64,000 nucleotides of DNA from contig OZ025869.1 in assembly GCA_964019415.1 (NCBI GenBank), forward strand, positions 8,535,214 to 8,599,213, read 5' to 3'. This document shows positions 8,480 to 58,423 of the stretch, piece after piece. The position numbers and the translations under genes are program-made. The stretch is from Ianthella basta (lineage: Eukaryota; Porifera; Demospongiae; Verongiida; Ianthellidae). The notes under the pieces were generated by a model. It was not told the origin of the DNA, did not search any database, and was given only the letters and a program-made list of their open reading frames with translations. Position 1 is the first letter of the stretch. Every line of letters starts with the position of its first letter.

Positions 8480-10318
8480 GAGGATCTATCTGCTGTTCCC
8501 TGGTGTGTGATGGATGCCTTTGATGACCCAGATGACTTGAAGCATTCAACCTTCTATTCTCAGACGTTTAGGATCAGCATGCCCCGGTTAAGACAGTTAG
8601 AGTACAGAAGAAACCATCTCCGTGGATCACCAAGTCAGTACGTAAGGAGATGGACAGAAGAAACAGGCTCTTTCGGTTCTACCGACGCAACCCCACTACC
8701 GCTGCCTGGGAGATATACAAGGCTCAGCGGAACCGTGTGGTTCAGCTACAGTGCAATGCTAAGTCTGCGTATTTCCATCATCTGTTGCTCAAGAAGTCTC
8801 ATCCATCGGCTCTGTGGAATACACTCAAGTTGGCTACCCGCACTTCAGTACACACAAATAACTCATTTTCCACTGGCTCAGATCCTACATCTGTTGCTGA
8901 CAACCTTAACAGCCACTTTGCTTCAGTCAGTTGCAACACCATTGCTCCTGCCTCCCTTTCTACTGTTTCCTCTCCAGCCACTCCCACTTCTACTTCCATG
9001 CCCGTCCTCTCTCTGACTTTAACTACTCCTGAATGGTGTGATCAAGCTCTCTCCAAGCTGAAACCCAGATGTGCCACAGGCCTTGATCAACTACCTCCAT
9101 CTGCACTTATTGCTGGTCGTTCCATGATCTGCTTTCCGCTCTCATCCATCATAAATTAATCCATCTCTTATTCCAACTTTCCCTGTCAATGGAAATGTGC
9201 CTCAATCCGTCCACTCCACAAGGGGGGTGACCGCGAGAAGGCAACAAACTACAGACCCATCTCCATTCTTCCAGCTACTAGCAAACTCATGGAAAAACAC
9301 GTCCAGCTTCAGCTGTTTTCACACCTGAACTCCAACAGCCTTCTCTTTCCTCTTCAGTCTGGTTTTCGCCCTTCCCACTCCACACAAACTCTACTTCTTC
9401 ATTGCTTAGACAGGGCTCTTGATCAGAAGAAATTAGTTGGAGTTGTCTTTCTCGACATATCCAAGGCCTTTGACACTGTCAGCCACGAACTTATGTTGTC
9501 TAAGCTTTCTAGCCTTGGCTTCTCTGCTTCTGCTGTTTCCTGGTTTTGTTCTTATCTTTCAAATCGTTGCCATGTCACTCGTGTTGCCGACTCTTACTCT
9601 TTCCCTGGCTTCCCTTCCTCTGGTGTTCCTCAAGGCTCGGTACTTGGTCCTACTCTTTTCTCTGTTTTTATCAATGATCTTCCTTCTGTGCTTCCTCCTG
9701 ACTCCACAGTACTGTTTGCAGATGACACCACCATCTACATCGTCAGTGACAATCTTTCCTCCATTCAATCCTCATTGCAGCTTTGCCTGGACCTTGCCAA
9801 CCTATGGCTACAGAGAAATGGCTTGAAGATCAATGTGTCAAAGACCAAGTCAATGTTGATTCATTCCAGCAGAAAGATTGTGGATGGCAACTTAACACTG
9901 AAGATTGAGGAAAGTATTGTGGAGCAGGTTCGGTGCAACAAATTCCTCGGAGTAGTAGTCAACGACACCCTCACATGGGTTGATCACATTGACATGGTTT
10001 GTAAGAAGGTCTCTCGTAGTCTAAATTTGCTTCGTCTTCTCTCTTGGTTTCTTCCCCAGCCTCTCCTGGTTCTTTTTCTCAAGTCCTACATACTCCCCCA
10101 CTTTGACTACTGTGATGTTGTGTGGTTTGACTGTACCAAATCTGAGTCCCATTGTCTTGAGTCTGTTAAACTTTGCTTGCCGTACTGTTCTTTGTAGATG
10201 TAAACACTCTTCTGCTTCTGCTGCTCGCCACGATCTTGGTCTATCAACACTGTCCTCCAGAAGGAAACTTCATCTTTCCCAGACTGTCTTCAAGTGCCTC
10301 TCTTCCCATTGTCCATGA
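8480..10318 (+). mobile_element. 5'-truncated jockey/CR1-like LINE with reverse transcriptase
   Basis: Homology starts near 8490 (MDAFDDPDDL), just after where an APE endonuclease would end, and runs through KKPSPWITKSVRKEMDRRN, then the 8650-9159 linker frame. The reverse transcriptase occupies 9289-10197: LDISKAFDTVSH, GVPQGSVLGP and the catalytic FADD. It continues to FLGVVVNDTLTW and a thumb. Damage includes a TAG stop near 8560, a stop at about 9159 and a one-base shift near 10180, after which the C-terminus continues to 10318. The endonuclease domain is absent. A CA repeat abuts the 3' end. Confidence 0.8.
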
Positions 10319-10959: not shown

Positions 10960-11983
10960 CATTACATTATCACTCCATCTCATCCTTAATTGGTCTACCT
11001 CTCAGCCTTCTCCCTTCCATCTCTCCTACATACACCTTCTTTGTCACTCTGTCGCTGTTCATCTCATTCAACCTGCCCTTCCAATTTTCCTGCCTTCTCC
11101 TTATAACATCTAATACATTTTCCTGCCCAAGATGCTGTCTAATATGTTCACTCCTTATTCTCTCCATTCTACTTACTCCTTGTATTCTTCTTAAAACATT
11201 CATTTGCGTTGCCTGCACTTTCGCCTTCTGCTGCTTTGTCAAGCTCCATGCCTCACAATCATACAACAAAGACAGCATCATTGTGGCCATGACTACTTTC
11301 AACTTTGTGCCTTCACGTAACTCTCTCTTCCTCAATACTGCCTCACTCATTCCTCCAATCATTCTCGTAGCACTCTCAATTCTTGCCTCCATTTCCTTCT
11401 GCATCCTACCATCACTACTTAACATCACCCCCAAATATTTCATTACATCTACCTGCTCAATAGCCTGGTCGCTAACTCTCACTTCACAGTCACCTCTCTC
11501 CCTTGCTACCTTCATCACTATTGTCTTCCTCCAATTTACCTTCAAGTCCCATCTAATCATTGCCTCACTCAATATCTGCAAATTGCTCTGCAGCCCCTCT
11601 TCCGACTCCACCATCAACACCATGTCATCTGCATAGAGTAGCACTCCCACCTCACCTGTAGACAGCCTCACCACTCTCACAAACCCTCCTCTTGCTTCCC
11701 TTGTCACCTTATCCACAAATACATTAAACAACCATGGTGATAGTGTGCAGCCTTGTCTCACACCCCTATTCACCCCAAACCAGTCTGACTCTATCTCCAA
11801 TCCTCACACTTGCGTTCCCACCCTCATACAGCAACTGAATTGCTAGTAATAATCTTCCCTCGATATCATGTTCTTCCAGCACTCTCCATAGCTTTTCCCT
11901 ATTCACCTTCTCTAACTCTACAAATGCCATATACACCACCTTGTCCTTTTCAAAGGTCTTCCCCATAATCTGCTTCACTGTAA
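10960..11983 (-). mobile_element. RTE/BovB-like LINE reverse transcriptase, 3' part
   Basis: Minus-strand frames overlap near 11766-11800 and need one frameshift. They carry FEKDKVVYMAFVELEKVN (finger/palm, region 2-like), GVRQGCTLSPWLFNVF, the catalytic LLYADDMVLM, and YLGVMLSSDGRM. A thumb follows, ending in a basic RRLRGRPIKDEME. The 5' continuation lies beyond the small CACTA element, at 13815-13960. Confidence 0.8.
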
Positions 11984-12230
11984 CACAGGAAGACATAGAT
12001 GAGAAGACGTGAGAATACCAAAGCCTGTCTTTCATGACAGACGGGGTCACAGACGTGGAAATACCAGCTGTGTGACTAGTCTATTAGCAGACTATGTGTT
12101 AGACGGTACATATAATTGTATTCATTGGTGTTGATGCATGGTACGTTGATATCATTAACCACAAAAGAATACGTGTGCTATATCAATGCACATATCAGTC
12201 GTTAACTTTGTGAGTCAGTGTATAGACCGA

Positions 12231-12665
12231 ATGGATCCCGAACGTGTGTTGGAAGAGTTACTGGCTTTAGAAGACAGTAGCGCTAGCAGTGAAATCTCCC
12301 TACCGCCAGCTAATGCCCTCGAGCGCAAACTGCTTAGCTCCGACAATGATGGCTCTGAAATTCAGTCTGATTCTGAACACCATGCCTGTGAAGGGACGTC
12401 CTTCAGTGGAACTGGAGCTCAGGATTACTACAATGCATCCTCCGCCAACGACGATGAAAAAGTGTGGCAGGAGTTTGCAACAGTAGAGGGCAAACCTTTT
12501 CTTCAAGAATCCTCGCCAGCCTGCCTGAATTTAGCATTGCAGCTAAATGTCGACTGGTTTCAGCCATTCAAGCACACTGTATTTTCCGTCGGAGCAATTT
12601 ATGTGTCATTTCTGAATTTGCCTAGGCACATGCAATATAAAGTTGGCAACACTATCCTAATTCTT
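12231..12665 (+). pseudogene. tnp2/Plavaka-type transposase, internally deleted N-terminal piece
   Basis: The start MDPERVLEELLALE matches MDPERALQEVLDLD of the large element. An acidic linker follows, with an apparent deletion. The frame then jumps to VWQEFATVEGKPF and the conserved LALQLNVDWFQPF...GAIYVSFLNLPRH segment. It ends at NTILI, exactly where the large element reads NTILVG. The catalytic core downstream is gone. Confidence 0.75.
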
Positions 12666-12672
12666 TTCATGC

Positions 12673-13351
12673 AGTGGCAATCTACAGATATTTTGAATCC
12701 CGTCACTGGGTATACCGAGATGCTCAGCCAGCCCGCAGGGAACAAGTGGCAAAGAACATGGCCAACACAACATTGTACTGCCGCAAAAAAGAGTAAGCAG
12801 CTATGCATGCATATTAGAGAGACAATATCATACTACCGTTTACAGCCTTTGATAGCTTTACTCCATCTTTGCATTATATACAGCTCTATGACAGAAGGGA
12901 GAAGCACCTTAAGTACGAGGCTGAGAAGCGGGCATGGAAGTCACTTGGCCCTCACTACATGTCTGAGGAAGACTCAGATGGGAAAAATTTAATTGTTCAC
13001 TCTCCATCTTGGCGTTCAACACGTAAGTTCCACAGCAATTCCACATTGATCATGATGTGTCACTGTAATTGTGGAACATTTCTTCCATTTTACAGAATTG
13101 ACCAACTTAATCAAGAAATTGGACGCCAGGATGGAGAGACAGAAAAGTGGCCTCAGGCAAGCTCAGGGCTTCCACAGCAAGAAAGGAATAGTGGGGTTAC
13201 CCTTGGAAAAGCCCCTCCAATGGCTGTGAAAAAGTGGGCTGTTAATCCAGAGGCTCTGGCCTCTATGACCACGGCTACAACTCAAGCGGGAGAGCAAGTA
13301 CCAGAGGAAGGGGATACTAGTGAGCTGACAGGACTTGACTTTGAAGAATAG
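12673..13351 (+). pseudogene. Accessory-gene C-terminal exons of the small CACTA element
   Basis: Three exons align with exons 4-6 of the six-exon gene at 26988-28347. The first has an acceptor at about 12674 and reads VAIYRYFESR...TTLYCRKKR. The second starts at LYDRREKHLKYEAEK, with HYMSEEDSDG and VHSPSWRST. The third ends AVKKWAVNPEALAS...LTGLDFEE and a stop at 13351. The same intron positions are kept. The last exon needs a frame change relative to its neighbours. The 5' exons were lost in the deletion that fused it to the transposase piece. Confidence 0.7.
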
Positions 13352-13814
13352 ACATTTAATATATCATTTAGTCATCTTTACATCGAATTACAATGTTTTA
13401 CTTTATCACAATTGATAACTATTGAGTTTACCTTTATTTTGTTTATATCCCACCATTTATGTATGCTTACTTACTGGAGTTTGTCACATTTGTTTAATAC
13501 TGAACGAAAGCCCAGTTTCTGTTGTCGTCGGCCATTTTCTCGATCAGTGCAATCTGAACAATTTTGACACTGAATCAGAACAAAGAAACGGGAACTGGGA
13601 CAAACGCAGACGTGTGCTAGACGGGCACGCTCACGATTGGCAGTCCACACGTAGACGGTGCGGTCAACTTACCCGTCTTTCGCACGTATCGGCCATATGA
13701 CACAGACGTAGGTAAGACGGGAACAATATTTGTTAGCTACACGCCGTCTTCGCACAGTATTCATAGAATACGGTGTAATAGATGGTACGGTGTTCGCGCG
13801 CTAGGTTTCCTGTG

Positions 13815-15995: not shown

Positions 15996-17030
15996 TACCA
16001 CTACCAGAAATTGCTGTATCGCCAAAAAGATGTCATCATTGCTGCATCTGCAGGTAGATATATTATGCATTAAGCATTCTTATCTTCATTTTTTACATTA
16101 TTATTCTTTCAGCTTGAGTGCATGCCTTTCTACATTCAACTTAATTGGTACACCCTAATACAGGTCCTTGTGTTGCAAGGCTTGAGATGTTTTTTGCTGT
16201 CACTTCAAGAAATCAAGTTATTTATCATTTTGTAGAAGTCACATTGTACAGAGAGTCAAGCATTGCATGCAATGCAATCTCAAACTTTTGTGACTATGAT
16301 GCTGTGGAACCTGAAGTCCCTTACAATCCTGCCAACAACAGTGTATTTCCTTTTGAAGCAGTCATAAGGAAAGTATGTTGACAGTATAATTATTGTAATA
16401 TGTATTTACATTATTTTACATGATACCTTGCATGCACTATATAGCTTTGCATGTATATATGGTTCTCTCTTTTCATGCAGGTTATGCTGTATCCCATGCA
16501 TATGCAGGATGGCAGTGGAGATTTCCTTGTTGTTCTGGACTTCCACAGGAAGCATAGCCGCCTCTTGGCCCCAGGCCAAGTTATAGTTCCCCTGCGGCCC
16601 CAGTGTGCTGACATGGTGTGGATTTCTGGAGAGGAGCGGTCTCCTGGTCAGGTCAGTATGATATAGAAATTACTCAATGGATGCAATGATTATATGCCAG
16701 ACCAGTAGCATGCAAATGCAACATTTTGGCCAGGCGAAGCATGCTTCTTGAACACTTATTGTCTCAATGAGCATTCTCAAATTCAATTATTCAACCCTCG
16801 TGCAGGCTATAGAATAATTATACAGATAGTATTTACATACTTATGAATGCAGTGATGCTATATGGTGCACGCATTGTGTGTATGCATGCATATATACACA
16901 CTTTATATAATGACAGCTTTAAATTTTATCATGTAGGCTTTTGTATGGCTTGCCAAGGTTCTGTCTGTCAATGCACATGCACAAAGTGCTAGAGTGGAGT
17001 TCTTTACTCCAGCTGAATCAATTTGGCTGA
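15996..17030 (+). CDS. Multi-exon gene remnant of unknown function, cut by the large CACTA element
   Basis: Four exon pieces join with agreeing phases. A piece ending at 16053 (phase 1) leads to 16164-16372 (GPCVARLEMFFAV...), 16481-16651 (VMLYPMHMQDGSGDF...) and 16937-17030 (AFVWLAKVLSV...VEFFTPAES). All introns are GT-AG. The protein is mostly beta-strand-like with short hydrophobic and Cys/Trp patches. It recalls the tudor-like tails at the C-termini of TE proteins, such as that of the CACTA transposase here, but I cannot name it. The transposon lands in the last visible exon. Read across the element, the same frame gives a stop nine codons later. Confidence 0.45.
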
Positions 17031-17175
17031 CACAGGAAACCTAGCCCTGGAAGACCTGAGAAGACCAAAAACCGTCTTCTTGGAAAGGAGAGGCAGCAGA
17101 CGTGTGAAAGACGGGGCATGTGATAGACGATTTGCAGACGATTCATACACGGGGGTGTTAATTGCATTCATTCAT
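17031..17175. repeat. Left terminal inverted repeat and subterminal AGACG repeats of the large element
   Basis: After CACAGGAAA come ACCGTCTTC, GCAGACGTG, AAAGACGGG, ATAGACGAT and GCAGACGAT within 115 bp. EnSpm-type elements use short subterminal repeats as transposase-binding sites, and these are the likely equivalents here. Confidence 0.65.
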
Positions 17176-17338
17176 TGTGGTAGAAGTACAGATTATGTCA
17201 TAAACCGCAGGCATTTGCTTACTGCGTATAGACCGTATAGATATTACGCGTAGCTAACGGTCGTGCAGCTCGATCGAACAGCTATATTATACTATATACG
17301 CCGCCACTGCAATCCTTTTAACCTGCGACAGCGGTGAG

Positions 17339-20300
17339 ATGGATCCCGAGCGTGCTCTGCAGGAGGTATTAGATCTAGATACCAGCAGCAGCGACAATGA
17401 CCAAGTCTCTCTGCCTTCACCACGCGATCTTGACTGTGAAGTTGGATCAGATTATGATTTCGATGGCCCAAATATTGGTTCTCAATCACCGTGCGATGTC
17501 TTAACAGGTGACAGCCCACCTACAATGGAAACATCTGCTACAGATCTAGAGGTAAATGTTGTACGCACGTATTTACCTCAAATGCATGTATATTATAGAC
17601 AGTCAGAATTATAGCTAGCTATTACTATTAGTGGGGCACTGTGGGAGATGAAGCGCTGCACAGTGACTGTTTCAGTCACGGATGCATGCATTAAACACTA
17701 AGCAGAATCATCCTCTTCTGTTCTCTTGTGCTGTCTCTGCGCTTCTACTAACTGGGTCAGCTTGGCGGCCTTCCTGTGTTGCGTGGTTCTGTTCCCTCCT
17801 GTGCACCCGCCATCGTACATCGTATTCCACTGCGCGTTTACCTAAGGAGACGCGCTCTCTTCACACTGGTCACCGTTCTTCCCTCTGTTTTGGCGTTTCT
17901 GAGGCACGCCGGGCCCGTTCTCTCCCTCTCTCCTCCTGCGCAGGCGGTCCTCTCCGTCGTTGGGCGAGTCTGACAGTCTACCATCCGTAGAATTGCCCAT
18001 GGTGCGATCCATAGCTGTAACATGCCGTGCCTAATAGGTAGGGTCTACTGACATTTCGTCCAGATGAGGCGAAGCGCAAACCCTCCGAGGTCACTCCCTG
18101 AGCTGCTGTGATGAAGTCGTCCGCGTTCGGCGTAGATTGATGGAGATCAAAGCGAACAACGAAACTACGATGTCTGCCCTATCCCAGATACTGAATCGAC
18201 CGTAAAAGAAGCAGCGTCCAGCGCAATGACTTTTAACCAAATTTTGGCTCTGCTATGTTGACCACACAACGCCTCTTTGTGTTCGTGTGTGGAGGCTATT
18301 CGTTGACAAGTGACGGAGTATACCCTGAACACAACATTGTACCCTATAGGTACAAGATTTGGCAATGACTGCCAAATCTTATACAAATAGAGCTTCAATC
18401 AGGGAACCATTTAGTGGCTAGACACCGTAATAATCACCTGCATGTCCCAGACTTGGGGATATTGAACTAGTGAAATAGTGACTAGTTTTCAAGTAGACTG
18501 TAACAGACCTATAGGAAAAGTAAGTGAAATTATACTAAATTCACTGTCTGCGTTATATGCGTGGCATCCATTATATTATGACGTTTGCATAATAACTTGC
18601 TATGTAATACCATAATTATTATATCCACCTAGGCAAGTATGCAGCCTGAGAATGTGACATTATTGGTCAAATCTATATCTTATTGGTATAGTTGTCTTTT
18701 TGCTGCATACGTTTTCATTACTTCCAGCATTACTACCTATACTTGCTAATATTGTTAGTGGAGCCATGCCTTTATACACTGTGTGAACATTACAGGCTTC
18801 AAGCATGCGAGGGCTAGGTTTGGCAGCAGGTTATCAAACTAATGCTGTTGGTATTTACCTCTAAATTGCATTAGAAGCTACTTCAGAAAGTCATAAATTC
18901 CAGTATTCAGTGCGGGGTTATGCCCCCCAGCAAGTGCATATGTGGGCCATGCAACATCTCATGCAACCTGAGCAACGCTGCCACAATTGTTTCCAATGGG
19001 ACAGATTTCCACTGATAATACATGCTTGTAGGGTATCATACCTTACATTCAGTTGTCTTTGGCTGACCCTAGACAGTAGACAGCTGGGGTGTGACCATGG
19101 GGAGGGTATATCATAAGTGGCAGATGTTTGCCAGATATTTCCACAGGCTTTTGCATTTGTACCTATTCTGTAATGAATGTCAATGGAAATTTGTTGCCTA
19201 ATAGAACGACACTTTATCAGGAACTATACAACATGCATGTGTAATGTGATTACACAGATACGTTCTTTATTGGAGTTAAAATGTATAATTAATTAATTAC
19301 ACAAGAATTTAAATTTACTATTTTCTCTATTACAGCAAACTGAACACACTGCCACAGTTCCCGGTTCAGAACAAGAATCAGAATTGTTCCAGTTTGACTT
19401 TTCAGCCAGGGATGACTCAGACGCAGAACCGGCAACTTCCATACAAGCACCACCTGTAAGTAGTTCTCTAAAAGGGGCAGTTAGTTCTATTTTGAAATGG
19501 TCTGCAAGATTTGGAGTCAGTGATACAGGCACATCAGAGCTATTCAGCATACTTCAGAAGTCGTTTGCCGTTATTAAAGGAAGTGGTGTATCACACAATT
19601 TAGTAGGGCCTGGCATTCCCGATTCACTGGGTAAAGCTATTGAAATGGTTAGTACAGCTAAGCAACCAAAGATTTCTGAGCTGCTAGTGTGTCCAGCCTG
19701 CCTTTCTGTGTACGGAGACTGGCATTCGGTGAAAGAATCACAGTGTAAGCATGTTGCAGCCCCATTTCATGTGCATGCTACCAGGCGAGTGAGTTGTGGA
19801 GCCAGTTTGTTTCAGCCAGGTGCAGTGAGGCGACCAGTACTCGTATACCCATATGTGTCCTTGGTTGAATCACTTCAAGCCTTTCTGGCACGACCTGGAT
19901 TCATGGAAGCTTGCCGAGTTGCTACTGAAGCTAGCAATAGCAATGCAACCACTATCTACTGTGATGTTTATGATGGCCAAGTCTGGAAGGACTTTATCAC
20001 AGTCGAGGATGCACCATTCCTAGGTGAATTGTCACCTGAGCGATTAAATTTAGCATTGCAGCTGAATGTTGATTGGTTTCAACCATTCAAACACACTGTA
20101 TTCTCAGTAGGAGCCATATATGTGAGCATCCTAAACTTACCCAGACACCTCAGGTACAAGGTGGAGAACACAATACTCGTAGGAGTCATTCCAGGACCAC
20201 ATGAACCCAGCCTACATGCAAATAGTTTCCTGGCTCCATTTGTATCTGAACTCTTGCAGCTGTGGGAAGGCATCACACTTGTTGGTAATGGCATAATGCA

Positions 20301-21915
20301 CCCTGTAGCTGTTCGTGCAGCACTATTGTCAGTGGTGTGTGACATCCCTGGCCTCACCAAGGTAGCTGGCTTTCTGGGACATGGGGCTAGACTGGGTTGT
20401 TCGAAGTGCTTGAAGACATTTCCAACAGAACGTTTTGGGGAGAAGCCAGAGTTCTCAGGTTATGATAGGGACCAGTGGCCAGAACGAGATATTGCCACTC
20501 ATAGACAGCGAGCAGATGAATACCCGTGCCTCCCTAACCGATCACAGCAAAAGGCTTTTGAGTCCCAACATGGTCTGCGTTACTCTGAGCTATTGAAACT
20601 ACCGTACTTCAACATTGTACGGTATTGTGTGGTTGACCCCATGCACAATTTGTTTCTTGGCAGCGCTCACCATTTCATGGAAGTAGTCATGGAGAAAGAC
20701 ATTCTCACAAAGGTAGATATGACTGCAGTAGAGGAGAGAGTCCAGGCTTTTAACTCACCATATGCTGTAGGGCGTTTGCCTCGTAAGGTGGCTTCCAAAT
20801 TTGCAGGCTTCAAGGCAGACCAATGGAGGAATTGGACTGTCATTTTCTCAGAAGTTGCTCTTAAGGGAATATTACCTTTACCATATTTCAATTGCTGGCA
20901 AAAGTATGTCAAAGCCATCAAATTGCTTTGCTCACATGCCATATCCAGAGCTAATATCATTGCTGCAGATGCGTTGCTGCAAGCATATTGTAAAGAGTTC
21001 GAGCAGCTCTTTGGCTCTGAAGCTTGCACCATCAACATGCACAAGCACTTGCATTTGATGAAATGCATGTTCGACTTTGGACCAATCTACAGTTTTTGGT
21101 GCTTTCCATTCGAGCGATTCAATGGACAGCTTGAATCTTACCACACAAACAGTAAGAATATTGAAGTGCAAATAGTAAAGAAGTTTTGTAGAACACAAGC
21201 TGTAATGTCACTACCAACAGCTGAGCAAGAGCCACCTACCGGCATGCTAATGCCACCGATCAGAAAGGCACAATATGAGCAGCTAATGCATTTGCAGACA
21301 GCTGCTCTACCACTCAGCACATTTGCCTTCTCCATTCATGACAGTGAGTTTGGAGCATGTATTGACATTGACCGAGCTAAAGTCAAGCATGAATTCCTGT
21401 CTGCAGCTGACCAGCAGCATCTACTTAAATTGTATGAAAGCCTCTACGGAGATATCACTATCATTTTTTCCTCCATGGAAGTAATGAAATATAAGAGAAT
21501 TGCTTTCGCCGGCCAATCTCTCAAAGCTTCGGAGTCTGGTCATGTAGTGTCCGCAATTTGGCCTGGTGCCCAGAATTCCCGAGTTGGAAGAATCATCTAC
21601 TTTTTCACACACAATATCAAGGTGGTTAGCAACACTCCCAGCTGCAGTATGGGGAGATCAACAGTGCACCTGCAACATTTCCTGGCTAAAGTTATATTCT
21701 TTCAACAGCACCCACAAGCAAATTATTTCAACAACCCTGACATTATTGTATCATTTAAGGAATACGATGCTAACATGAGCCATTGTACATTTATACCACT
21801 ACAGAGGTTAACTGGAGTCTGTGCAAGCGGTACTTTGTCACTATCGTTTGATAGCATGGAAGCACACAACGTATTGGTAACCAAGACTTTACCCTTCAAT
21901 TTTACGGTACTATGA
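17339..21915 (+). CDS. tnp2/Plavaka-type CACTA transposase, two exons, about 930 aa
   Basis: Exon 1 is 17339-17551 (71 codons, MDPERALQEV..., donor GAG|GTAAAT). Exon 2 is 19336-21915 (acceptor TTACAG). Both are phase 0, and the 1,784-bp intron is the only one needed. The protein should cut and join the element's own ends in the nucleus. Residues 1-190 are acidic and disordered. A CPAC...C...CG cluster near 190-235 may bind zinc. The catalytic region holds LNVDWFQPF (about 315), VCDIPGLTKVAGFLGHGA and GCSKCLKTFP. DPMHNLFLG lies at about 505, and HKHLHLM...FGPIYSFWCFPFERFNG at about 640-668, the DUF4218-like block. A tudor-like tail follows (SRVGRIIYFF..., about 813-905). No stop or shift is seen. 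Confidence 0.88.
17552..19335. other. Large intron of the transposase gene
   Basis: A 1.78-kb GT-AG intron. It contains a locally GC-rich block (about 17740-18000) with open frames on both strands but no recognisable protein. Otherwise it is A+T-rich and featureless. Confidence 0.6.
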
Positions 21916-22334
21916 CAGTACGCAAATATACTATTGACTCCACATTAAAATTAACTGTATGCATGTTTGTACATTAATCTTTTTTGTAATCCCCCTACCC
22001 AATCTATCATGGTCATTGAATCCCATCCACACACATGAAGATGAATTGCATGCGAATTAAGCAGAAAAAAATATACAACATAAGAAACAAAACGATATGT
22101 GATAACATGTAATAAGGTGAATCGCGCAAAACGACAGGCTTACTGCAAATGGTCAGCAAGTGCATTATGGGTTTGTACACTGCTCCATCCGTATTCCTGC
22201 AATGTGATAGTAAGAAGAGGATCACACCAATGACAACTAGCATGCTCTGACATGCAGCGAAACATACTTTCCATTGAAACTGTCTGATTCTTCTTTCTTC
22301 AAATTCTGTCATGCACCACTACACCACAACATTA

Positions 22335-22854
22335 GCACCAGATCCCAGCAGCATGGATCATGACACCCACAACTTGACACAGAACACACACAATATCATC
22401 TTGGTCACCATTGCTCCGTATACCCAGCGCCACACATACATGCAGCACCAGATCCCTGCAGAATGGATCCCACGGGCCCTATATCCTAGGCAACATCTAG
22501 CACATTCCCATGTACAGTGACCTAGAACACCTGCAATGAGGAGGTCAACCGCGCCACACCAATGCAGGGGGCTGGTCAACACAGCCTCGCAAGAGTTGTG
22601 CCTGCCCTGTCATTCTCCAATGCCGTGCATATCCAGCGCTAAAACAGCACCAGATCCCAGCAGCATGGATCATGACACCCACAACTTGACACAGAACACA
22701 CACACTACCATCTTGGTCTCCATTGCTCCGTATACCCAGCGCCACACATACATGCAGCACCAGATCCCTGCAGAATGGATCCCACGGGCCCTATATCCTA
22801 GGCAACATCTAGCACATTCCCATGTACAGTGACCTAGAACACTTGCAATGAGGA
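22335..22854. repeat. Two direct copies of a 208-bp sequence, 312-bp period
   Basis: Copies at 22335-22542 and 22647-22854 are almost identical (GCACCAGATCCCAGCAGCAT ... CAATGAGGA). They are separated by about 104 bp of different sequence. They lie between the transposase and kinase genes, inside the element. The frames crossing them have no homology that I recognise. Confidence 0.85.
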
Positions 22855-23184
22855 CCTAGAACAACAGAAGTACACTGACTTTTAGCCCATTAGCCCCTAC
22901 AGTGTCTACTGATAGGCCTCCACAGTTGCATAGAGAATAGGGCTTCCTATAAACTGATGATAGCTACAGCCTAGGCTAAGGTCACTTATCTTTCAACTGT
23001 GTGGCTCCCACATCAGCGATAATCGGGCCAAAGTCACAGTACACTTGCTCCAGAAGAGAAACGGCTGTCTCGCATTTTGCAGACCTGGGAGAATCAAGGA
23101 AGTGAAGCTCGCAAGGACTACACGTGGCTACGTAAGTGTGTATCCATGTACAAGGCTGGGTAGCTGTAAACTAGTGGACTTACC

Positions 23185-23331
23185 GTACTGCCGCAATCAG
23201 TATTCTATTCGTGACACACAGACTGTACCGCCACATTCAGTATTCTTCTCGTGACACACACATGGTACCGCCACATTCAGTATTCTTCGCGTGACACACA
23301 CACATGGTACCGCCACATTCAGTATTCTTCT
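23185..23331. repeat. Tandem array, about 40-bp unit, 4 copies
   Basis: The unit is GTACCGCCACATTCAGTATT, then CTTCTCGTGACACACACATG, with small changes. Length differences come from a CA tract within the unit. The array ends about 90 bp before the kinase-gene start codon. It may be promoter-proximal or an internal binding array. No function can be shown. Confidence 0.8.
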
Positions 23332-23424
23332 TGTACTATCTCTTGTTTTCTGAGAAAACGCCCACTTTTTACTTCAGGGTAACCCTCGCGAGGAAATAAG
23401 CTATATACTCTAGCACGTTCGGCA

Positions 23425-25943
23425 ATGGGGAAAAGATCAAAACGCTACGCATTGAGGCAGAGAGAGAATCGGCGCCGAGCCAAGCGCATTGCAGCGAGAT
23501 GGAGAAAACATCGTGACGTCAATGAAAGTGCCGATCATGAAGGCAAGATGGTGGACGAGGAAGCTCGGTCTTCGCAGCAGGACTGTCAAGTAGAGAGCAG
23601 GCAGTCATTGCAAGAAGCGGAGATTCTGGCTGAAAACAGACAGCAGCAGTCATTGGAGGAAGTAACGGCTCAGGAGTATAGGCAAATCCGACAACTCTTA
23701 TACATGGAACAAAGAAGACCTCGAGTGTTCGAGAAACAGTGTGTGAGGTGCCTAAGACAAAGGAATAGAAAAATCGCTGCAATGAACAATACATTGCGAA
23801 GAGCAATGTTTTCTGGCAAGACCTTAGGTTCTAGATACCTCCTTGCTGCTATGCAGAAGAATTGTAAACAGCTACACTAGCTAGCTAGTCTTAGCTATAG
23901 CTAATAATAATTTGTACTAAAATTGTTAATTCATCCATAATCTTGTGTGTAATGATGTTACATTAATAATCTTTTGTTTATGGTATATAGTATATGTGCT
24001 GTATATTGCAATGAAGTTCTTATTAATCTATATGAGTACGAAACTTGCATTAGTGTAAAATTAATATGAACAAGTGATAGCTATTGCATGAATCTTGTGC
24101 TGATCAATGTGAGCTTGTGATCATATGCAATAGCTATATGTAATATATAACTATTATTATTATTATTCCATTAATAATTATTGTTAAAGCTAGATAACTG
24201 TTACAGCTAATTATATAAATCAACCTCAAATTTGTAGAGTTTTGCAAATATGGCTTATATATATATATAGCTGTACCTATATATATATAATCATGAATCA
24301 AACCAATGACATATGCATGTACACTACATGTGATCATGCATACTATTTTTATGATGAACGTTTATGTATGTTATCATGTTTGTTCATGCAGGCCACTCTG
24401 ACACAGCTGCACCCACAATGCCTACTCCGCACGGAGGAAATTCATCTACGAAGAAACGCCGACAGCGGAAGAAAAGAGCTGTGAAACGTCTTCAGAAAAC
24501 AGTAAAGGAACTCCAGAAGCAGAAATCTGTCCTTATGATGCAAGCAGGCAAGCAGTCCAGGGTGCAATTACGGGATAGGAAAAAGCTATCTACCACAAGA
24601 GTTTTGCCAGAGTTTGTATTTGATAAAAATGTTAAAGTCATTCCCGAAGGATCAGTGAAGGAACTGCAGCTTACTGCATGTGCTTCCGGTAAGAATACTG
24701 AATTCTGCACAATTGCACATGCACAGCTATAGCATCATAGCTTTTAACATGATTGAATTTCTTACAACAGTATTGTATATACACATAGGATTGCCTGTTA
24801 TAATAGTAATTACAATGATACTATCTAATGTTGTGGAGCTGTAGCAATAAACTCCATGCATGCATTCTGTTACGGTAATTACTAATATATTTGCATGACT
24901 GTATACCCTGTATAATTGTACAATATCTTTCATGATCAGGAACTGGCCTGCTTGAAGTGGCACATTTGGTATTTGCCGTGCCATGTGGTATGCAGGAATC
25001 CGTGTTGCTGTAAAATCCTATCATCATCAGCATATACAACCAAAGCATATTTTAATGGAAGCTAATATGCTTGAGGCAAGTATTTGGCATATGGCATGCG
25101 ACATGATATATACAACATTGGATGTGCATGAGTTTAAGAATTGAAGACATTATAATTATTCAATTGTCTGTTTAAAGTTTAATATATTTTTGTATTTTTA
25201 TGCAGCGGTGCACTGGACATCCCAATATCCCATTCTTCTTTGGAAGCGTCCCTAACTTGAAGCCTGATAGCCTACCATCACTGGTTATGTCCATTCATAC
25301 AGTAGGTGGTTCGCCCCTTACTTTGCAATCTCTGCTTCATGACAGTGCTGTCACTGTCCACGAGAAGAAATGTGCATTTCTATTGCTAGGTGAGCATAAC
25401 CATTAAACTGCCTGCATTAATATATATATACAATGCATATTATGCATGCATGCATGCATTATATAGCTATATAGTATAGTTATGCAGGCGTCTTTCACAA
25501 ATTGTGCAGGTGTTGCTGAAGGTCTTTTGCATGTTCACGGCCAAGGAGTGTTGCACAACGACTTGAAAGCAGATAATGTAGCCCTATCTGACTGTTTGCC
25601 AGAATGCAAGGAAAATCCCACAAAGTTTTGGCCTACAATCATTGACTTTGGTAAAGCGTGCCCATCTGACAGAGGGAAAAAGTACTCTTTGCCGCACCAC
25701 CAGAAAAAAGTTTTTAAGGAACGTTATACACAATTGGCACCGGACCTGCTAGATGGAAACGTTGCACAAAGTTTCCTTTCAGACGTTTACTCGCTTGGAA
25801 AACTTATAGAAAGATTGGCTTCAGCGGCTGTCAATGGAAAGGCACTGTGTCAACTGTCACTGCAGTGTACCACCTATTCGTGCACTGATAGGAAAGAACT
25901 TGGAGAAGTGACTACTACTCTGAAGACCATTGCATATATTTAA
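23425..25943 (+). CDS. Protein-kinase-like gene carried by the transposon (5 exons, one phase conflict)
   Basis: Proposed exons are 23425-23863, 24392-24688, 24958-25075, 25206-25389 and 25510-25943. Phases agree at junctions 1-2, 3-4 and 4-5. Intron 3 uses a GC donor (GAG|GCAAGT). The first 245 residues are very basic and coiled-coil-like (KKRRQRKKRAVKRLQ). The kinase core follows: glycine loop SGTFG, VAVK (ATP-binding Lys), GHPNIPFFFG, HNDLKADN (catalytic Asp and Asn, with the usual Arg of HRD replaced), IDFGKA, QLAPDLLDG (APE-like) and SDVYSLGKL. It resembles tyrosine-kinase-like or TKL small kinases. Exons 2 and 3 differ by one nucleotide from an in-frame join, so either this copy has a one-base deletion at the acceptor or the splice site is unusual. 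From exon 3 on it is undamaged. Confidence 0.75.
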
Positions 25944-26987
25944 TAACTTACACTGTACTGAAACACCTATAAATTGTCTGGCTGTGATAGAAACTTACAC
26001 TAATTATGTCATGAGCCTCGAGCCATGATTTGCACTTGCAATTGTTCAATGTGGCTAGTTGCTAACACATATAATTGGAATCTACTAGCTACATACATGT
26101 TGCAACTGCATCATTTTGACTTGTACAAAGAGCAGTCTATACAGATGTGTATGGGAGTCACCAATAAAAATTATATTGTCATTTTCACCTATTGCACACC
26201 ATAAGGAAGTGGCATAAAAACACTTGAACTGATGCTGATTACAAAGTTGGTAGCTATATAGCTAGCTTGTTTGCATGCATCCTCTCGAACTGTTGCTTCA
26301 ATGCAGGAACTGCTGGCTTCTACTGACCTGTGTTACTTGCTAGGCATGGCACACAGGCACAGCTGCTGGCCAGCACACAGCCAGAATGACACTGGAGATT
26401 GAGAACATAGGTGGTCATCATCTACACCTGCAATAGACACAAACCGGCAAGAAATACAGCTAGAGGACCAGCTATACAATTCACAATGAACAAACAACAA
26501 TAGAACTAGCTACATGCAAAGCAACAACAGAAACATATAAACACTAGATGTAGACCTAGCATGCATATACAATAATGTTGCGTACAACAACTTACTACAT
26601 TACTTAGCCTAGAGCCATGGTAATGCTAGCTCAACATCGATTTAGCTAGGCTTCTGCTTAAGCTTGAGCCTAGTCCCATTGGAACAACCAAGTTAAACCT
26701 CGCTCACCAATAGTCCATGCCAGGAATACATTGGCGACGTATTCTGGGAGTCACACGATGATATACCCTGTGCGCGTTCTGTCCATCCACCCAAAGATCG
26801 AGGAAGAAAGTCCTCGATCTTTGATCCACCGTGTGCTGAATTCCGCCATTTTCCACACGGGCTGCACGTGGACGGATATCTATAAATAGCATGCATTAGT
26901 GGGCTATCAGGAGCACGTGCTGTGTGGGTGTGCACTGTTACCATGGTAAACCCTCCAATTTTCAAAGACTAGCGCGGATCTACAGAG
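25944..26987. other. Intergenic segment of the large element
   Basis: About 1 kb without a convincing gene. It contains a perfect 13-bp inverted repeat at 26792-26823 (CAAAGATCGAGGA, 6-nt loop) about 165 bp before the next start codon. That could act as a regulatory or binding palindrome. Confidence 0.5.
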
Positions 26988-28347
26988 ATGAGCACAGCTG
27001 CAGGCTTCCCTATACGACCTGCATATAGCAGGAATGGTTTTTATGGTGCCCCACTGCAATCTTCTCCAGAGGGTCCTAACACCAGTGGTAGTGCTAGCAC
27101 CCCAAGATCTCACTTCCAGCTGCAACCAGAAGAGCAGCAGCTGTGGTATAGACCGCAGCCACAGCAGCCCTTGGAGTCACAATCCATCCTCTCCCGCTTG
27201 GAAGCAATGGAGGCTCACCTTAGAACACTGACAGCCTCGATCAATCAGCCACGTGAACCGGAAGTTGTCACTACGCGATCATGCCGCATCCCACCAGTCC
27301 TATCAGTATGTCTGTTCAATTACCATACTAATGTTGCTTTAACAGTGATGTTAGTGGACCTTTTCCATACTACAGAAACAAGTGAAGGAGCTCCACTGTG
27401 TGCTGGATGTACAATTTGATCCACAGCAATTGTAAGGAAGTTGGTGTGATGACTGAATGTTTGACAAAGTAGTAACAGCCTGCAATTACTTACAGGTACA
27501 GATCTGAGCACAACCAAGCTGTTTGCACAACTATGCTAGAGCAGCTGTTGTCATCAGGTCGTGATGAATACAGCACATCCGTCATCAAAGGTATAGCATA
27601 ATGTTGCTTCTAGCTATGCATATTTACTTATAAATACTTGGACTTAATACTTGTGTGCATGCATTTGCAGCTGCTATCTACAGATATTATGAATCTAGGA
27701 GACGCCTTCATCGTGATAAGCAGAGCAGGCATGAGGAGCAGGTGGCAAGGAATGCAAAGAACACAATAGCATACTGTCGCAAGAAGAGAGTAAGTATGCA
27801 GTGATACACAAACATGGTCAAGTCCTTTGTCACTTTACTGTTTGACTTCTCCATTTGGTTCCTTTACACAGCTTTATGACCGAAGGGCACGATCCTTGAA
27901 GCATGAAGCGGAGAAGAAGGCATGGCAGTCCATCAATCCGCATTACATGTCTGAAGAGGAAACAGATGGGGAAGATGCATTCATTGTGCATTCTCCATCC
28001 TGGAGATCAACACGTAAGCTCAAACAGATTTGCAACTGATTAATTTTCCATCAAGGTTCAAACACAGTTGTCATACCATTGCATGATTTCATCTTTCAGA
28101 ACTTCAGAACGTAGTGCAAAAGCTGGATGCCAGGCAGGAGCGGCACAGCCATGGTACCAGACAAGGGTTCCGCTCCAAGTCACGTCAGCAGGGTGATCCT
28201 AGCACAAAGTCACCACCCAAAGCAGTCAAAAAATGGGCTGTCTCCCCAGATGTCTTGGCCACACTGGCAGAACCAGTGACACAGCCAGAACAGGAACCTG
28301 AGGCTGAAGATTCTGGTGAACTACATGGTATTGACTTTTCAGAGTAA
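26988..28347 (+). CDS. Intact six-exon TE accessory gene of unknown function, 325 aa
   Basis: Exons 26988-27305, 27376-27431, 27496-27590, 27671-27789, 27872-28013 and 28100-28347 join through five GT-AG introns of 64-86 bp. The phases (0, 2, 1, 0, 1) all agree, giving 978 nt with one stop. The N-terminus is Ser/Pro/Gln-rich with a short coiled coil (ILSRLEAMEAHLRTL). The middle has a helical YRYYESRRRLHRDKQ basic stretch. Later blocks are LYDRRARSLKHEAEK, HYMSEEETDG, VHSPSWRST and a C-terminal AVKKWAVSP...DFSE. The same last three exons are kept in the 1.8-kb sister element, so the gene belongs to the transposon family. A DNA-binding partner of the transposase, like TnpA, would fit, but nothing seen proves it. 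Confidence 0.8.
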
Positions 28348-28589
28348 CACTAACAGTCCCTTTGACTTATAATTAGCTCACAACTCTTATATACCCATTT
28401 ATCCTTCTCTTTATTTTTCTATTGTAACTCACCACATGTTTCGAAATTCATTGCTGAAAGTAAACTTTCTTCCCCAGTATTTTTCGGCCATTTTCTGCAA
28501 AGGCTATATAAATCGTGCGTGTACCGAAACGCGTTCCAAAGCAGTATAAATATCAAAATAGAAGCTGGACCGAAGTGAACGCAAACGTT

Positions 28590-28802
28590 CGGAAGACGGT
28601 TTGCTTACTGTGAGCGGACAAATTGTCAGACGGTGTCGTCACCTTCCCGTATTCCGCACGTATCGACTATATGCAGGAGACGTAGGTAAGACGGGAGCGG
28701 TCTTGATTGGTATTACGAACCCGTCTTCGTACGGTATTCCTGGAATGACGGTGCGGTTTTCTATGCTAGACGATACGGTGTTCTGGAACGCGATTCCCTG
28801 TG
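28590..28802. repeat. Right subterminal AGACG repeats and terminal inverted repeat of the large element
   Basis: AAGACGGTT, CAGACGGTG, GAGACGTAG, AAGACGGGA, CCCGTCTTC and TAGACGATA lie within 190 bp of the end TTCCCTGTG. The same words in similar order occur at 13610-13790 of the sister element. Confidence 0.65.
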
Positions 28803-28805
28803 TGA

Positions 28806-32224: not shown

Positions 32225-34300
32225 CATCAGACAGGGTTGGTTGAGCTAGCTGGCAGATGTAGCTGGTGGATAGCAGACCGCCACTGGGCTCTGTCCTTCA
32301 CTAGGTCTTCCCAGTTGGTGATCTTGGACAGGTCCCTATTGACAACGTCTATCCAGCGGAGTGAGGTTCCTCCAGGCTTCCTCTTCTTGCCTCGTGGCCG
32401 GCATTTCAGCACCTGTCGCTGTGGCCGGTGGGCTGGCATCCTTTGGAGGTGACCAAACCATTGCAGTCATCTCAGTTTCACCTGGTCTTCCACTGGTATT
32501 TCGCCTACTTCTGCCAAAATATCGTCATTTCTTCTCTTGTTCCACAAGGTCACTCCAATAATGTTTCGCAGGCACTTCATCTGGAAGGCATGCAATCTTG
32601 TGAGGTCCTGCTGAGTGACTGCCCATGTCTCCAATCCATACAGAAGTACAGACATTACCATCACTCTGAACATATGAGCCTTGGTCTTCTTACTCACACT
32701 TCGACTTCTAAACACCTTCCTCCTCCACATCTGGTACACTGTGGCTGCCTTCTCCAATCGTGTGCTCACCTCTCCATCTACTCTAGCAGTCTGCCCCACT
32801 TTACTCTCCAGATAGGAGAATTCTTCCACAGCCTCCAGTGCATTGCCCCTAAGTGTGCTTGTTGGTTGGTCATCATCAGTACCTGCTCCGATACTCATAA
32901 TCTTTGTCTTCGCTCCATTGATGTCCATCCCCCACTTCATACAGGTCCTGTCCAGAGTGTCCACCATAAAATGCAGCTCTTCTCTGGTTTCCTCCACGGT
33001 AGACCCTGGTATCCAGGATTGATGACATCATCCTCTGCTTTACCAGAATATAATCCTTGAGGCTGGGTGGTTTCCTGGCATCTGGGGGGTACCATGTCGC
33101 TTGATGGATACGTTTGTGGGCAAAGAAGGTATTGGTAAGGCATAGACCATTGGCACATGCAAATGAAACAAGCCTTTCACCATTGTCACTAGTTGTAGCC
33201 TCAAGTCCATAGGAACCAACTACTCCATGCAGACCCTCACTTACCGATGCATTGAGATCACCCATTAACATCACCTGCCTGTTACCTCTTGCCAAGATGC
33301 AGTTGAGATCCTCATAGAACTGGTCCTTCTCTTCAGCATTGTCCTGGTTGGTGGGGGCATATGCTACTACAATCATCAGTGGGCCAACTCGTGTCAGAAA
33401 CTCTGCTATCAGGATTCTAGCTGATATGCTCTGGTGGTGGCGCAGTGCTTCTCGTGCTTGTGGTGACAGTGCTAGCCCTACACCCTCGACACCTCGACCA
33501 TCCTGCCTTCCAGAGAATAGCAGAGTATATCTGCCTTCTTCATTTAGCAGCATTTCTCCCTCGCCACTGAGGTGGGTTTCTGTTACTGCTAGGATGGATA
33601 GTCTGTACTGTTTCATCTCCATTGCCAGCTGTTTGGGCCTTCCTATACCGTGAAAAGTACGCACATTCCAAGTTCCAAACCTTTGTACTTCGTGAGCGCT
33701 CAATAGTCTGTTCTTAACTTCTTTTCTTTTCGTCCTTGGTGGCGTTTTCTTCTGGTCCTGTTTCCTCTTTCCGCACTTCTGACCTGCCTTCTGCGAAGAC
33801 TCGTTGGTAGATACCGCGCTTGCTACCTGCTGCTCAGTCCCGTCCGACAGTTGTTGTCGCGATCCTGTTTTCCTAGCCCTTACCATAGTGGATGATCTGG
33901 CCAGCCTCAAGCCTGGTCCTGCACGCGTATCCCTAGTGCAGGTAAGGGTCTGAGAACTCCTCAGAAAATAACGGGAGGCCGTTGGGGCTACTGGTGCCCT
34001 CCTCCGCCCGCCAGTCGTTGGGGAGACGCATCCTTCATCCGCCTGCCGGAGTCCCGTTAGCTCCGAGTCAGGTCCTGTGGTTGCCTAATGCACCGGTGTG
34101 GCGTTGCTGTTCTTCGTAGCGAGGTCTTCACAGGATGTGTCTCCCCTCCGGTTTTTGGGTACCTTCGAGGTGTCATCGCAGCGTCGACTCGCCATTTGGT
34201 CACTTCTGCTTCGCGATTCTGTCGGGATCAGATCCCGATGTTGTCGCATTCTCAGGTCTGGAAACGGGTAGCAGTCCTCTTCTGATAAGCATTACCTAGG
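32225..34300 (-). mobile_element. RTE/CFDP2-like LINE with internal deletion of the reverse-transcriptase core
   Basis: The minus-strand frame 33910-32876 carries an APE-type endonuclease: FGTWNVRTFHG, AVTETHLSGEGE (catalytic Glu), VVAYAPTNQ and LMGDLNASV. Then TSDNGERLVSFAC and KDYILVKQRM. Near 33005, instead of the reverse-transcriptase fingers and palm, it jumps to EETREELHFMVDTLDRTCMKW. This is the stretch that normally follows the YADD site. The thumb continues through 32467, and a basic tail (RPRGKKRKPGGTSLRW) runs to 32227. The YADD is gone, so it cannot be autonomous. The 5' end is GC-richer, up to about 34300. Confidence 0.8.
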
Positions 34301-43700: not shown

Positions 43701-44179
43701 ATACCAGAAGTACAATAGATTAGACAAAATGACATGAAACACAGTTATGTATGCAATAATGTAATGGTTTTTCAGTTCCATATAAGTAACACTGTGTGAT
43801 ACATGACTATTCTTCTTTATCAGAACTAGCATTCAGATCTTCCTCCCCAGGATGCAGATAATCCACAATTGATCCCGCGATTGAAGCACCAATGTCAGCA
43901 TCACCGTACAGTATGATGCCATTGCTTGCTGCTTTAAAGCAGACAATGGCAAACTGACTTGGATTTGATGAGAATAAAATAAATGTGCAACTAGTGCAAA
44001 TATGTACACTAGCAAATGTAGTGCAAATTTGGGATACGAACATGGTACATGGACTCTTGGAGATGATGAAGATTTCAAAACCAAATGTAAGATCAAATTT
44101 ACTGAGGGTAACTGCACAACTCAAACCGACCTAGCAGCTTGTGAGAAGACAGGCAGATGATAATTCAGAATTAATGGAA
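43701..44179. other. No gene recognised
   Basis: A+T-rich sequence with minus-strand Ser-rich frames that match nothing I know. Confidence 0.3.
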
Positions 44180-44710
44180 TTAACCCTACTTTAAACCAAT
44201 TCAATATTCCGTCATCGACCCAATGCATAATCTGTTTCTGGGCACAGGCAAACACATGCTGGAAATGTGGTTGGAATTAGACATTCTGACAAAGACAAAC
44301 TTATTGTGTTCGGAAAAGTGCATGCATAGTTTCTTAATCCCAGATGGCATTGGCTGACTGCCAACCAACATTGAAGGCGTAATTGCAGGATTTATTGCAG
44401 ATCAGCGGAGGAATTGGATCCTCATATTCTCCCCAGTTTTGTTGTGCGGCCTCATAGAGAATGAGCACCGGAGGGATCCTTGATGCTGTTTGTTACAGCA
44501 TGTTCCATATTTACATCTAGGATTCTGCGCCTTACTCGTGCTAAAGAAGCTGATGATCGCATATTGTCATTTTTCAAAACCTACCTGCATCTGTATAAGA
44601 ATAAGTCTTGTACCATGAACATGCATCTACATTTTCACCTGTTGCAATGTATTCATGATTATGGTAGTACTAGTGGGTTTCGGTTGTATGTGAAGCTTCA
44701 TGCAGCATGA
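44180..44710 (+). pseudogene. tnp2/Plavaka-type CACTA transposase fragment, third and most decayed
   Basis: The sequence reads YSVIDPMHNLFLGTGKHMLE, then DILTKTNLL and AGFIADQRRNWILIFSPVLL. After a frame change come CTMNMHLHFHLLQCIHDYG and a truncated end where FGPxxxFxFExxNG should lie. Blocks are in the same order as in the intact transposase (DPMHNLFLG...), with several stops. No terminal repeats were found. Confidence 0.7.
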
Positions 44711-44949
44711 TTAGATAGCGTCCACAAGTAGTGCAGGAAACTCAGGTTCAGAGGCAATTGGGGCAGCTCGTGAACATCACTAACAACCTGCCAACACTGA
44801 ACAACACCAGAAAGCTAGTCTGCACACCACACAATGTAGTGCAGTTGAAGGGCAATGCAGGGTTTGCCACAGAGAATGTCTCCAATAGAGCAGTGGAGGA
44901 AGAGATTGATGAGAGGAAAGAGGTTTAGCTTGAAGTCTTTCTTTACTAC

Positions 44950-58405: not shown

Positions 58406-58423
58406 AATTGGATCAGCGACAGC

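Follow-up and report, generated by a model that had tools for sequence, protein, structure and literature searches.

Why should a gene for a protein kinase lie inside a DNA transposon, and is it there as a piece of captured host sequence or as a regular part of the element? The question is raised by a 64,000-nucleotide stretch of the genome of the sponge Ianthella basta (C2:8535214-8599213 of a source assembly of 209 Mb in 96 contigs), hereafter called the window, in which a transposon of the CACTA/EnSpm type encloses a multi-exon kinase-like gene; positions in this element are given in window coordinates. The initial annotation had left both alternatives side by side. The comparison of the element with its relatives in the same genome favors the second one: the window element is probably one copy of a CACTA/EnSpm (tnp2) family in which the kinase has long been a regular component, passed on along with the transposase and two further genes, denoted B and D. 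Four duplication-bounded elements from two subfamilies hold the kinase along with the same three partner genes, which speaks for a standing component and against recent capture from the host. Judging by the sequences compared, the kinase is a standing component of part of the CACTA lineage.

The window element (copy A) spans positions 17031-28802 (11,772 bp), as read directly; it starts with CACAGG, ends with CCTGTG, and is flanked on either side by the trinucleotide TGA (17028-17030 and 28803-28805; no strand assigned). The left terminal inverted repeat (CACAGGAAACC..., 17031-17044, plus strand) represents an end common to copies B and C of the family, and the right one (...TTCCCTGTG, 28789-28802, minus strand) was delimited by comparison with copy B. 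The inverted repeat is short and weak past the hexamer, matching in 8 of the first 10 and in 19 of the first 40 bases. The listed subterminal repeats comprise AGACG/CGTCT units on the left (17073-17140, plus strand) and AGACG units on the right (28594-28773, plus strand); the 7-mer AAGACGG, scored on both strands, occurs five times in the two 300-bp ends vs. zero times in the middle.

Copy B (C1:16052644-16066850; 14,207 bp) is ~99% identical to copy A and has the duplication ATA on either side. Its match to copy A starts at window position 17030/17031 and stops at 28802, thereby supporting the boundaries; the ends and the TGA duplication read in the initial annotation are confirmed. The same ends accompanied by a different duplication also disfavor the possibility that the ends of copy A arose by chance. 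The extra length of copy B is mainly due to added units of a tandem repeat with a 312-bp unit spacing, present in two copies in A (22334-22854; no strand assigned). Since copies A and B have these boundaries and duplications of their own, the kinase lies inside a unit that moved as a whole; for A and B, this movement was a recent one.

Copy C (C2:13071563-13083256; TGA duplication) possesses a transposase 60% identical to that of A and the four genes in the same order; its ends were the only pair in 16.5 kb of the CAC(T/A)(G/A) type, 8-16 kb apart, with at least 9 of 14 bases matching and a matched duplication. Another element, C3a (C3:866161-877287), is hallmarked by CACTGCACCA ends, a CAA duplication, and a transposase 46% identical to that of A over residues 128-639. 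Its ends are supported by subterminal repeats of the GTTAAC type (seven AGTTAAC in the ends vs. none in the middle). It holds the same four genes in a changed order, and there the kinase and D are encoded on one strand and the transposase on the other. Hence all four genes (transposase, B, kinase, and D) are present in A, B, C, and C3a, and the kinase lies inside the bounded unit in each of them, so the idea of a host kinase gene flanking the element was rejected. The termini invariably start with CAC and end with GTG (CACAGG/CCTGTG in A, B, and C; CACTG in C3a), and 3-bp target-site duplications were found as TGA (A), ATA (B), TGA (C), CAA (C3a), and TAA (a 1.8-kb derivative, see below). The search for further CACAGG elements proposed in the initial annotation thus yielded copies B and C, both carrying the kinase between the transposase and the 325-aa gene (D); full-length copies lacking the kinase, which by the initial annotation would have told against its reading, amounted to none of the three full-length CACAGG copies with a duplication. 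Of two further loci, C4 (C4:152334-162380) has both CACAGG ends, B, kinase, and D, its transposase being represented by no more than exon 1 and a piece of the C-terminus in the sequence seen, and the kinase at C2:2681k is nearly identical to that of C3a over the compared stretch, with a B gene ~6 kb away.

The gene order in copy A is transposase, small basic protein B, four-exon kinase, and six-exon D. The transposase was modelled as exon 1 (17339-17551, plus strand; starting MDPERALQE and ending at a GT donor, with a similar start in the C4 copy) and exon 2 (19336-21915, plus strand), the latter also backed by motifs and a Pfam match. The 872-aa frame at 19297-21915 matches Pfam Transposase_21/tnp2 above the cut-off (E 4.7e-16), in agreement with the tnp2 type recognized earlier. 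The EnSpm pattern was described as a DDE motif whose second D and E are separated by C(2)C and H(3-4)H motifs (PMC12730594). The residues assigned by motif in copy A (D259, D349, C368/C371, H582/H586, and E606, numbered in the 872-aa frame) fit this pattern. The first transposase intron contains, at 17647-18055, a ~400-bp dispersed repeat found in more than 25 other places of the genome with 71-83% identity, and at 44151-44731 there are decayed pieces of tnp2 genes that share 27-42% identity with the transposase of copy A.

The gene B (23425-23880, plus strand) encodes 151 aa and has relatives in copies B, C, C4, and C3a; the motifs LLYxEQ, PR, CxxC, and GSRYLLAA are invariant in all four aligned sequences (A, C, C4, and C3a). 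The 325-aa gene noticed in the initial annotation, i.e., D, was modelled as six exons at 26988-28347 (plus strand), and its relatives adjoin several tnp2 copies. Neither B nor D matched a Pfam family above its cut-off in the Pfam search; D, recurring alongside tnp2 genes without such a match, is a candidate for the TnpA-like, DNA-binding second protein of CACTA/EnSpm elements. Elsewhere in the window, a 394-aa open frame (58406-59590) resembles by eye another DDE-type transposase, and reverse-transcriptase- and endonuclease-like frames at 8572-10197, 10970-11803, and 32876-34084 look like remains of long interspersed nuclear elements.

The kinase gene of copy A comprises four exons on the plus strand: exon 1 (24418-24688) with a basic Lys/Arg-rich N-terminus, exon 2 (24940-25075) with the glycine loop, VAVK, and the helix-C Glu, exon 3 (25206-25389), and exon 4 (25510-25943) with the catalytic loop HNDLKADN, DFG, APD, and DVYS. 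The last exon of copy A matches Pkinase (1.4e-10), and the spliced 341-aa protein of copy B matches Pkinase (PF00069) at 3.4e-21, in agreement with the kinase-like gene noticed in the initial annotation. The protein of copy B displays GSGTFG, VAVK, HNDLKADN, DFG, and DVYS as well as the basic N-terminus, and reading and alignment place the catalytic residues (Gly loop, Lys, Glu, Asp, Asn, and DFG) in both B and C. The intron positions are identical in A, B, and C; intron 2 (25076-25205) has a GC donor in A and B and a GT donor in C. All 26 aligned family members have HND, the Asn of the catalytic loop, and the Asp and Phe of DFG without exception; HRD is usual where the element kinases have HND. 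The catalytic-loop lysine presumably indicates Ser/Thr specificity. The kinase of the locus C3b (see below) was modelled by AlphaFold2 as a kinase fold with a mean predicted local distance difference test score (pLDDT) of 85 and a predicted template modelling score (pTM) of 0.80; in a fold search its best matches were solved kinases, the Src family leading. Sequence matches include STE20-, RAF-, and PINK1-like kinases with weak E-values (best 2.6e-8), so that, next to the Src-led fold matches, more than one kinase group may be considered.

The kinase is under purifying selection, with a ratio of nonsynonymous to synonymous substitution rates (dN/dS) of 0.13-0.18: 0.158 for B-C over 329 codons, 0.129 for the catalytic exons of the same pair, 0.165 for B-C3a, and 0.178 for C-C3a, all of them rough values, with synonymous sites near saturation (proportion of synonymous differences, pS, 0.67-0.70). 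Between copies A and B, the 233 compared kinase codons (exons 1 and 4 only) show a single replacement and not one silent change; the A-B ratio for the transposase is 0.71 on 44 changes, perhaps as a result of differing C-terminal frames. In the kinase phylogeny, which the initial annotation had suggested building, the element kinases form one clade (support 0.965) with the protein-search relatives P0024-P0029; a larger clade (0.963), from which the eight outgroup kinases are separate, also takes in P0003-P0011 and P0014-P0021. The tree is based on 238 columns and includes 9 of the 15 kinase-family loci.

These data bear directly on recent capture, according to which a host kinase gene or its fragment was picked up in the manner of Pack-CACTA elements and has no role. 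CACTA elements are known to pick up pieces of host genes, and the frame-shifted kinase of copy A together with the kinase-less tnp2-domain loci (both detailed below) would fit such an origin. At the same time, the gene set is the same though the transposases are only 46-60% identical, the kinase dN/dS is low, and the intron positions are common to A, B, and C. Genome searches point in the same direction: with the C3b kinase as a query, identity fell to 22-31% (E 3e-7 or weaker) for the nearest kinases not belonging to the family, apart from one stop-ridden 90-aa stretch with 40% identity, and the last kinase exon retrieved family loci only. A close host source kinase outside the family, such as Pack-CACTA capture would lead one to expect, was found in the genome by neither of these two queries. 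Since the four-gene set occurs in divergent elements, the kinase is under purifying selection, and no close host kinase was found with these queries, recent capture is disfavored and appears highly improbable.

To what extent the kinase accompanies the transposase across the genome was estimated from 15 kinase-family loci, i.e., 14 places retrieved with one query and one with a second (the C3b kinase), weaker general kinases being left uncounted; a third kinase query, P0029, added no locus to the 15 in the genome search. For ten of them, a transposase match occurs at a distance of at most 10 kb, in one case solely as decayed pieces 9.2 kb away. For a single locus, the chance of a transposase within 10 kb is 0.26% (27 transposase clusters in 209 Mb); transposed copies are not independent, so a binomial figure for the clustering is not a probability of independent captures. 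In the transposase tree, built from the 20 of 23 loci with at least 200 aligned positions, kinase carriers occupy three places among non-carriers: A/B/C with C3b, C3a, and C62, the placing of the last being weak (0.397).

A number of observations weigh against the kinase being a long-standing component of the family. For five of the 15 kinase loci, the surrounding 10 kb contained no transposase match, and several loci contain stops in the matched stretch. Conversely, a kinase match was found within 10 kb of six of the 17 loci with a tnp2 domain and was lacking at the other 11, a count that a kinase too diverged for the queries could escape. Among the kinase-less loci, C2:399k has an open 852-aa transposase frame and, over 4.9 kb, shares 99.6 and 99.7% identity with two other loci; two of these three have the open 852-aa frame and one has a stop. 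The 14.9 kb searched around C2:399k contained no kinase match, nor did any of the 16 stretches around transposase loci without a called kinase, searched to ~1.5 kb beyond each match. Such kinase-less relatives seem to have moved recently, although their element ends were not found and the near-identical loci may instead represent a segmental duplication. In copy A, the frame of the glycine-loop exon does not fit those of the neighboring exons (it is open in B and C), a point missed in the initial annotation. A complete kinase is thus probably not produced from copy A by itself, provided that the frame shift is not an assembly error, which it may be. The ends of C3a are the best (11/14) of four candidate pairs with a duplication rather than the sole pair, and the flanks are unmatched in C4 (TTA, AGA) and in the locus C3c (ATC, AGA), where the kinase has one stop. 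Closely related pairs show weaker constraint (0.28 for C-C4 on 18 changes; 0.33 for C3b-C3c on 9 changes), and for the transposase, saturation of the silent sites in the pairs A-C and A-C3a (pS 0.81-0.82) left no ratio for comparison. Finally, a 1,831-bp element at window positions 11984-13814, with CACAGG ends and a TAA duplication, derives from the copy-C subfamily by deletion; it keeps transposase exon 1, a further 201 bp of transposase sequence, and the right-hand portion including D, and is devoid of the kinase, B, and most of the transposase. Because related tnp2 elements of the same genome appear to lack a kinase and to have moved recently, the kinase is probably an accessory outside the core cut-and-paste chemistry.

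Two loci suggest that the kinase can also be replaced. C3b, for which element ends were looked for and none found, has a C-type transposase (branch sum of ~0.11 on the transposase tree) with the kinase on the opposite strand; this kinase represents a second, deep branch, 29% identical to the kinase of copy B. C3c (10784358-10791646) has CACAGG ends, only a short C-terminal transposase piece, and a kinase 97% identical to that of C3b. As a deeply diverged kinase of the same clade is associated here with a C-type transposase (C3b) or CACAGG ends (C3c), these loci seem to have undergone an exchange of the kinase and not its loss. Left ends of the family with 82-85% identity and no transposase match nearby were also seen at C3:1402429 and C3:2251898, perhaps belonging to non-autonomous copies. 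A reading frame near C2:404615 looks collagen-like by eye, which hints at an animal source.

Such an exchange, along with the different gene order and strand in the CACAGG and CACTG elements, is what one would expect of a passive passenger module passing between transposons and kept for its mobility or for a tolerated site. The analogy would be the fungal TET/JBP genes, whose transfer was termed passive (PMC12730594). Purifying selection and the intact catalytic residues argue for a selected function instead, no search for ends around the kinase itself having been made; the passenger explanation is therefore regarded as rather unlikely, and inheritance of the kinase as a standing component of the element is preferred.

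What this component would do can be outlined tentatively. The kinase might be expressed, enter the nucleus by virtue of its basic N-terminus, and phosphorylate the transposase, B, or D, or else chromatin or silencing proteins of the host, thereby raising or timing transposition; this scheme is the favored one, though at somewhat less than even chances. If the host proteins were its sole concern, the kinase would serve to counter silencing or to manipulate the host in another way and would not regulate the proteins of the element. VANC of the VANDAL elements is an analogue of such a factor. The sister tnp2 elements apparently doing without the kinase are in line with an add-on of this kind, and transposon-borne TET/JBP genes (PMC12730594) offer a further possible analogy. 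Nothing separates this possibility from phosphorylation of the transposase, B, or D, and it is considered less likely than not. A selfish toxin-antidote role, in which the kinase would penalize loss of the element, may be conceived by analogy with Spok genes. Kinase-bearing Spok genes reside in giant transposons of fungi, and a standing cargo apparently dispensable for the transposition chemistry would suit this role. Still, Pfam reveals no nuclease or toxin domain in the kinase, B, or D, and the copies are few and scattered; such a role is scarcely to be expected.

Relatives were also sought beyond this genome. Among the matches listed in the protein search were the kinases P0024 (83% identical) and P0025-P0029 (57-70%) and the transposases P0126 and P0127 (83-84%), whereas P0001, P0002, P0022, and P0023 resemble by eye the kinase exons of the source genome itself. 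The kinases P0003-P0021 are 30-36% identical and represent clusters of up to 105 members; several of them have a similar basic N-terminus, as judged by eye. A search of viral contigs returned nine pattern matches and no confirmed relative, and among the GTDB genome contigs five matches were confirmed, weak ones (28-41% identity) in records that without exception bear bacterial titles. One could imagine an ancient CACTA clade with its own kinase as a standing component across distant hosts, P0003-P0021 being transposon genes as well and the kinase licensing transposition or disarming silencing; this broader picture is speculative and, for now, unlikely.

To our knowledge, DNA transposons are usually thought to depend on kinases of the host for any phosphoregulation. 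A kinase of their own, kept while the transposases diverged to 46-60% identity, would imply a selected phosphorylation step in transposition or in host evasion, and a single genome offers a natural test set, in which some sister elements hold the kinase, others lack it, and still others have apparently had it exchanged. The elements share with CACTA/EnSpm transposons (the CMC clade) the CAC...GTG ends, the 3-bp duplication, the subterminal repeats, and a tnp2 transposase with a DDE motif accompanied by C(2)C and H(3)H; they differ in that genes for a protein kinase and for a small basic protein belong to their regular set. Pack-CACTA and similar elements are CACTA elements with a non-transposase gene, holding host fragments. 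The Ianthella kinase, by contrast, is common to divergent elements and under selection. Alpha-kinases, for their part, constitute an atypical kinase family.

No kinase was described in a CACTA element among the full-text matches listed in the literature search, which lay outside most subscription papers and Repbase entries, nor was a transposon-borne kinase found in the available parts of PMC12810828 and PMC4938662. The earlier statement that no kinase is known as a regular cargo therefore stands for CACTA/EnSpm within these matches and does not quite hold for DNA transposons at large, since a kinase inside a DNA transposon has a precedent in the alpha-kinase of fungal IS3EU elements (PMC12730594). 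All TET-bearing IS3EU families described in that 2025 fungal paper have the TET/JBP gene between the transposase and alpha-kinase genes (PMC12730594). Like the Ianthella elements, they are DNA transposon families regularly possessing a kinase and a transposase, the two being in opposite orientations in IS3EU (PMC12730594); unlike them, they belong to another superfamily and carry an alpha-kinase, whereas the Ianthella kinase matches Pkinase PF00069. Fungal EnSpm, KDZ, and other transposons with TET/JBP genes are similar in that an enzyme gene is kept and exchanged between transposon lineages, and different in that the enzyme is a dioxygenase acting on methylcytosine, not a kinase (PMC12730594).

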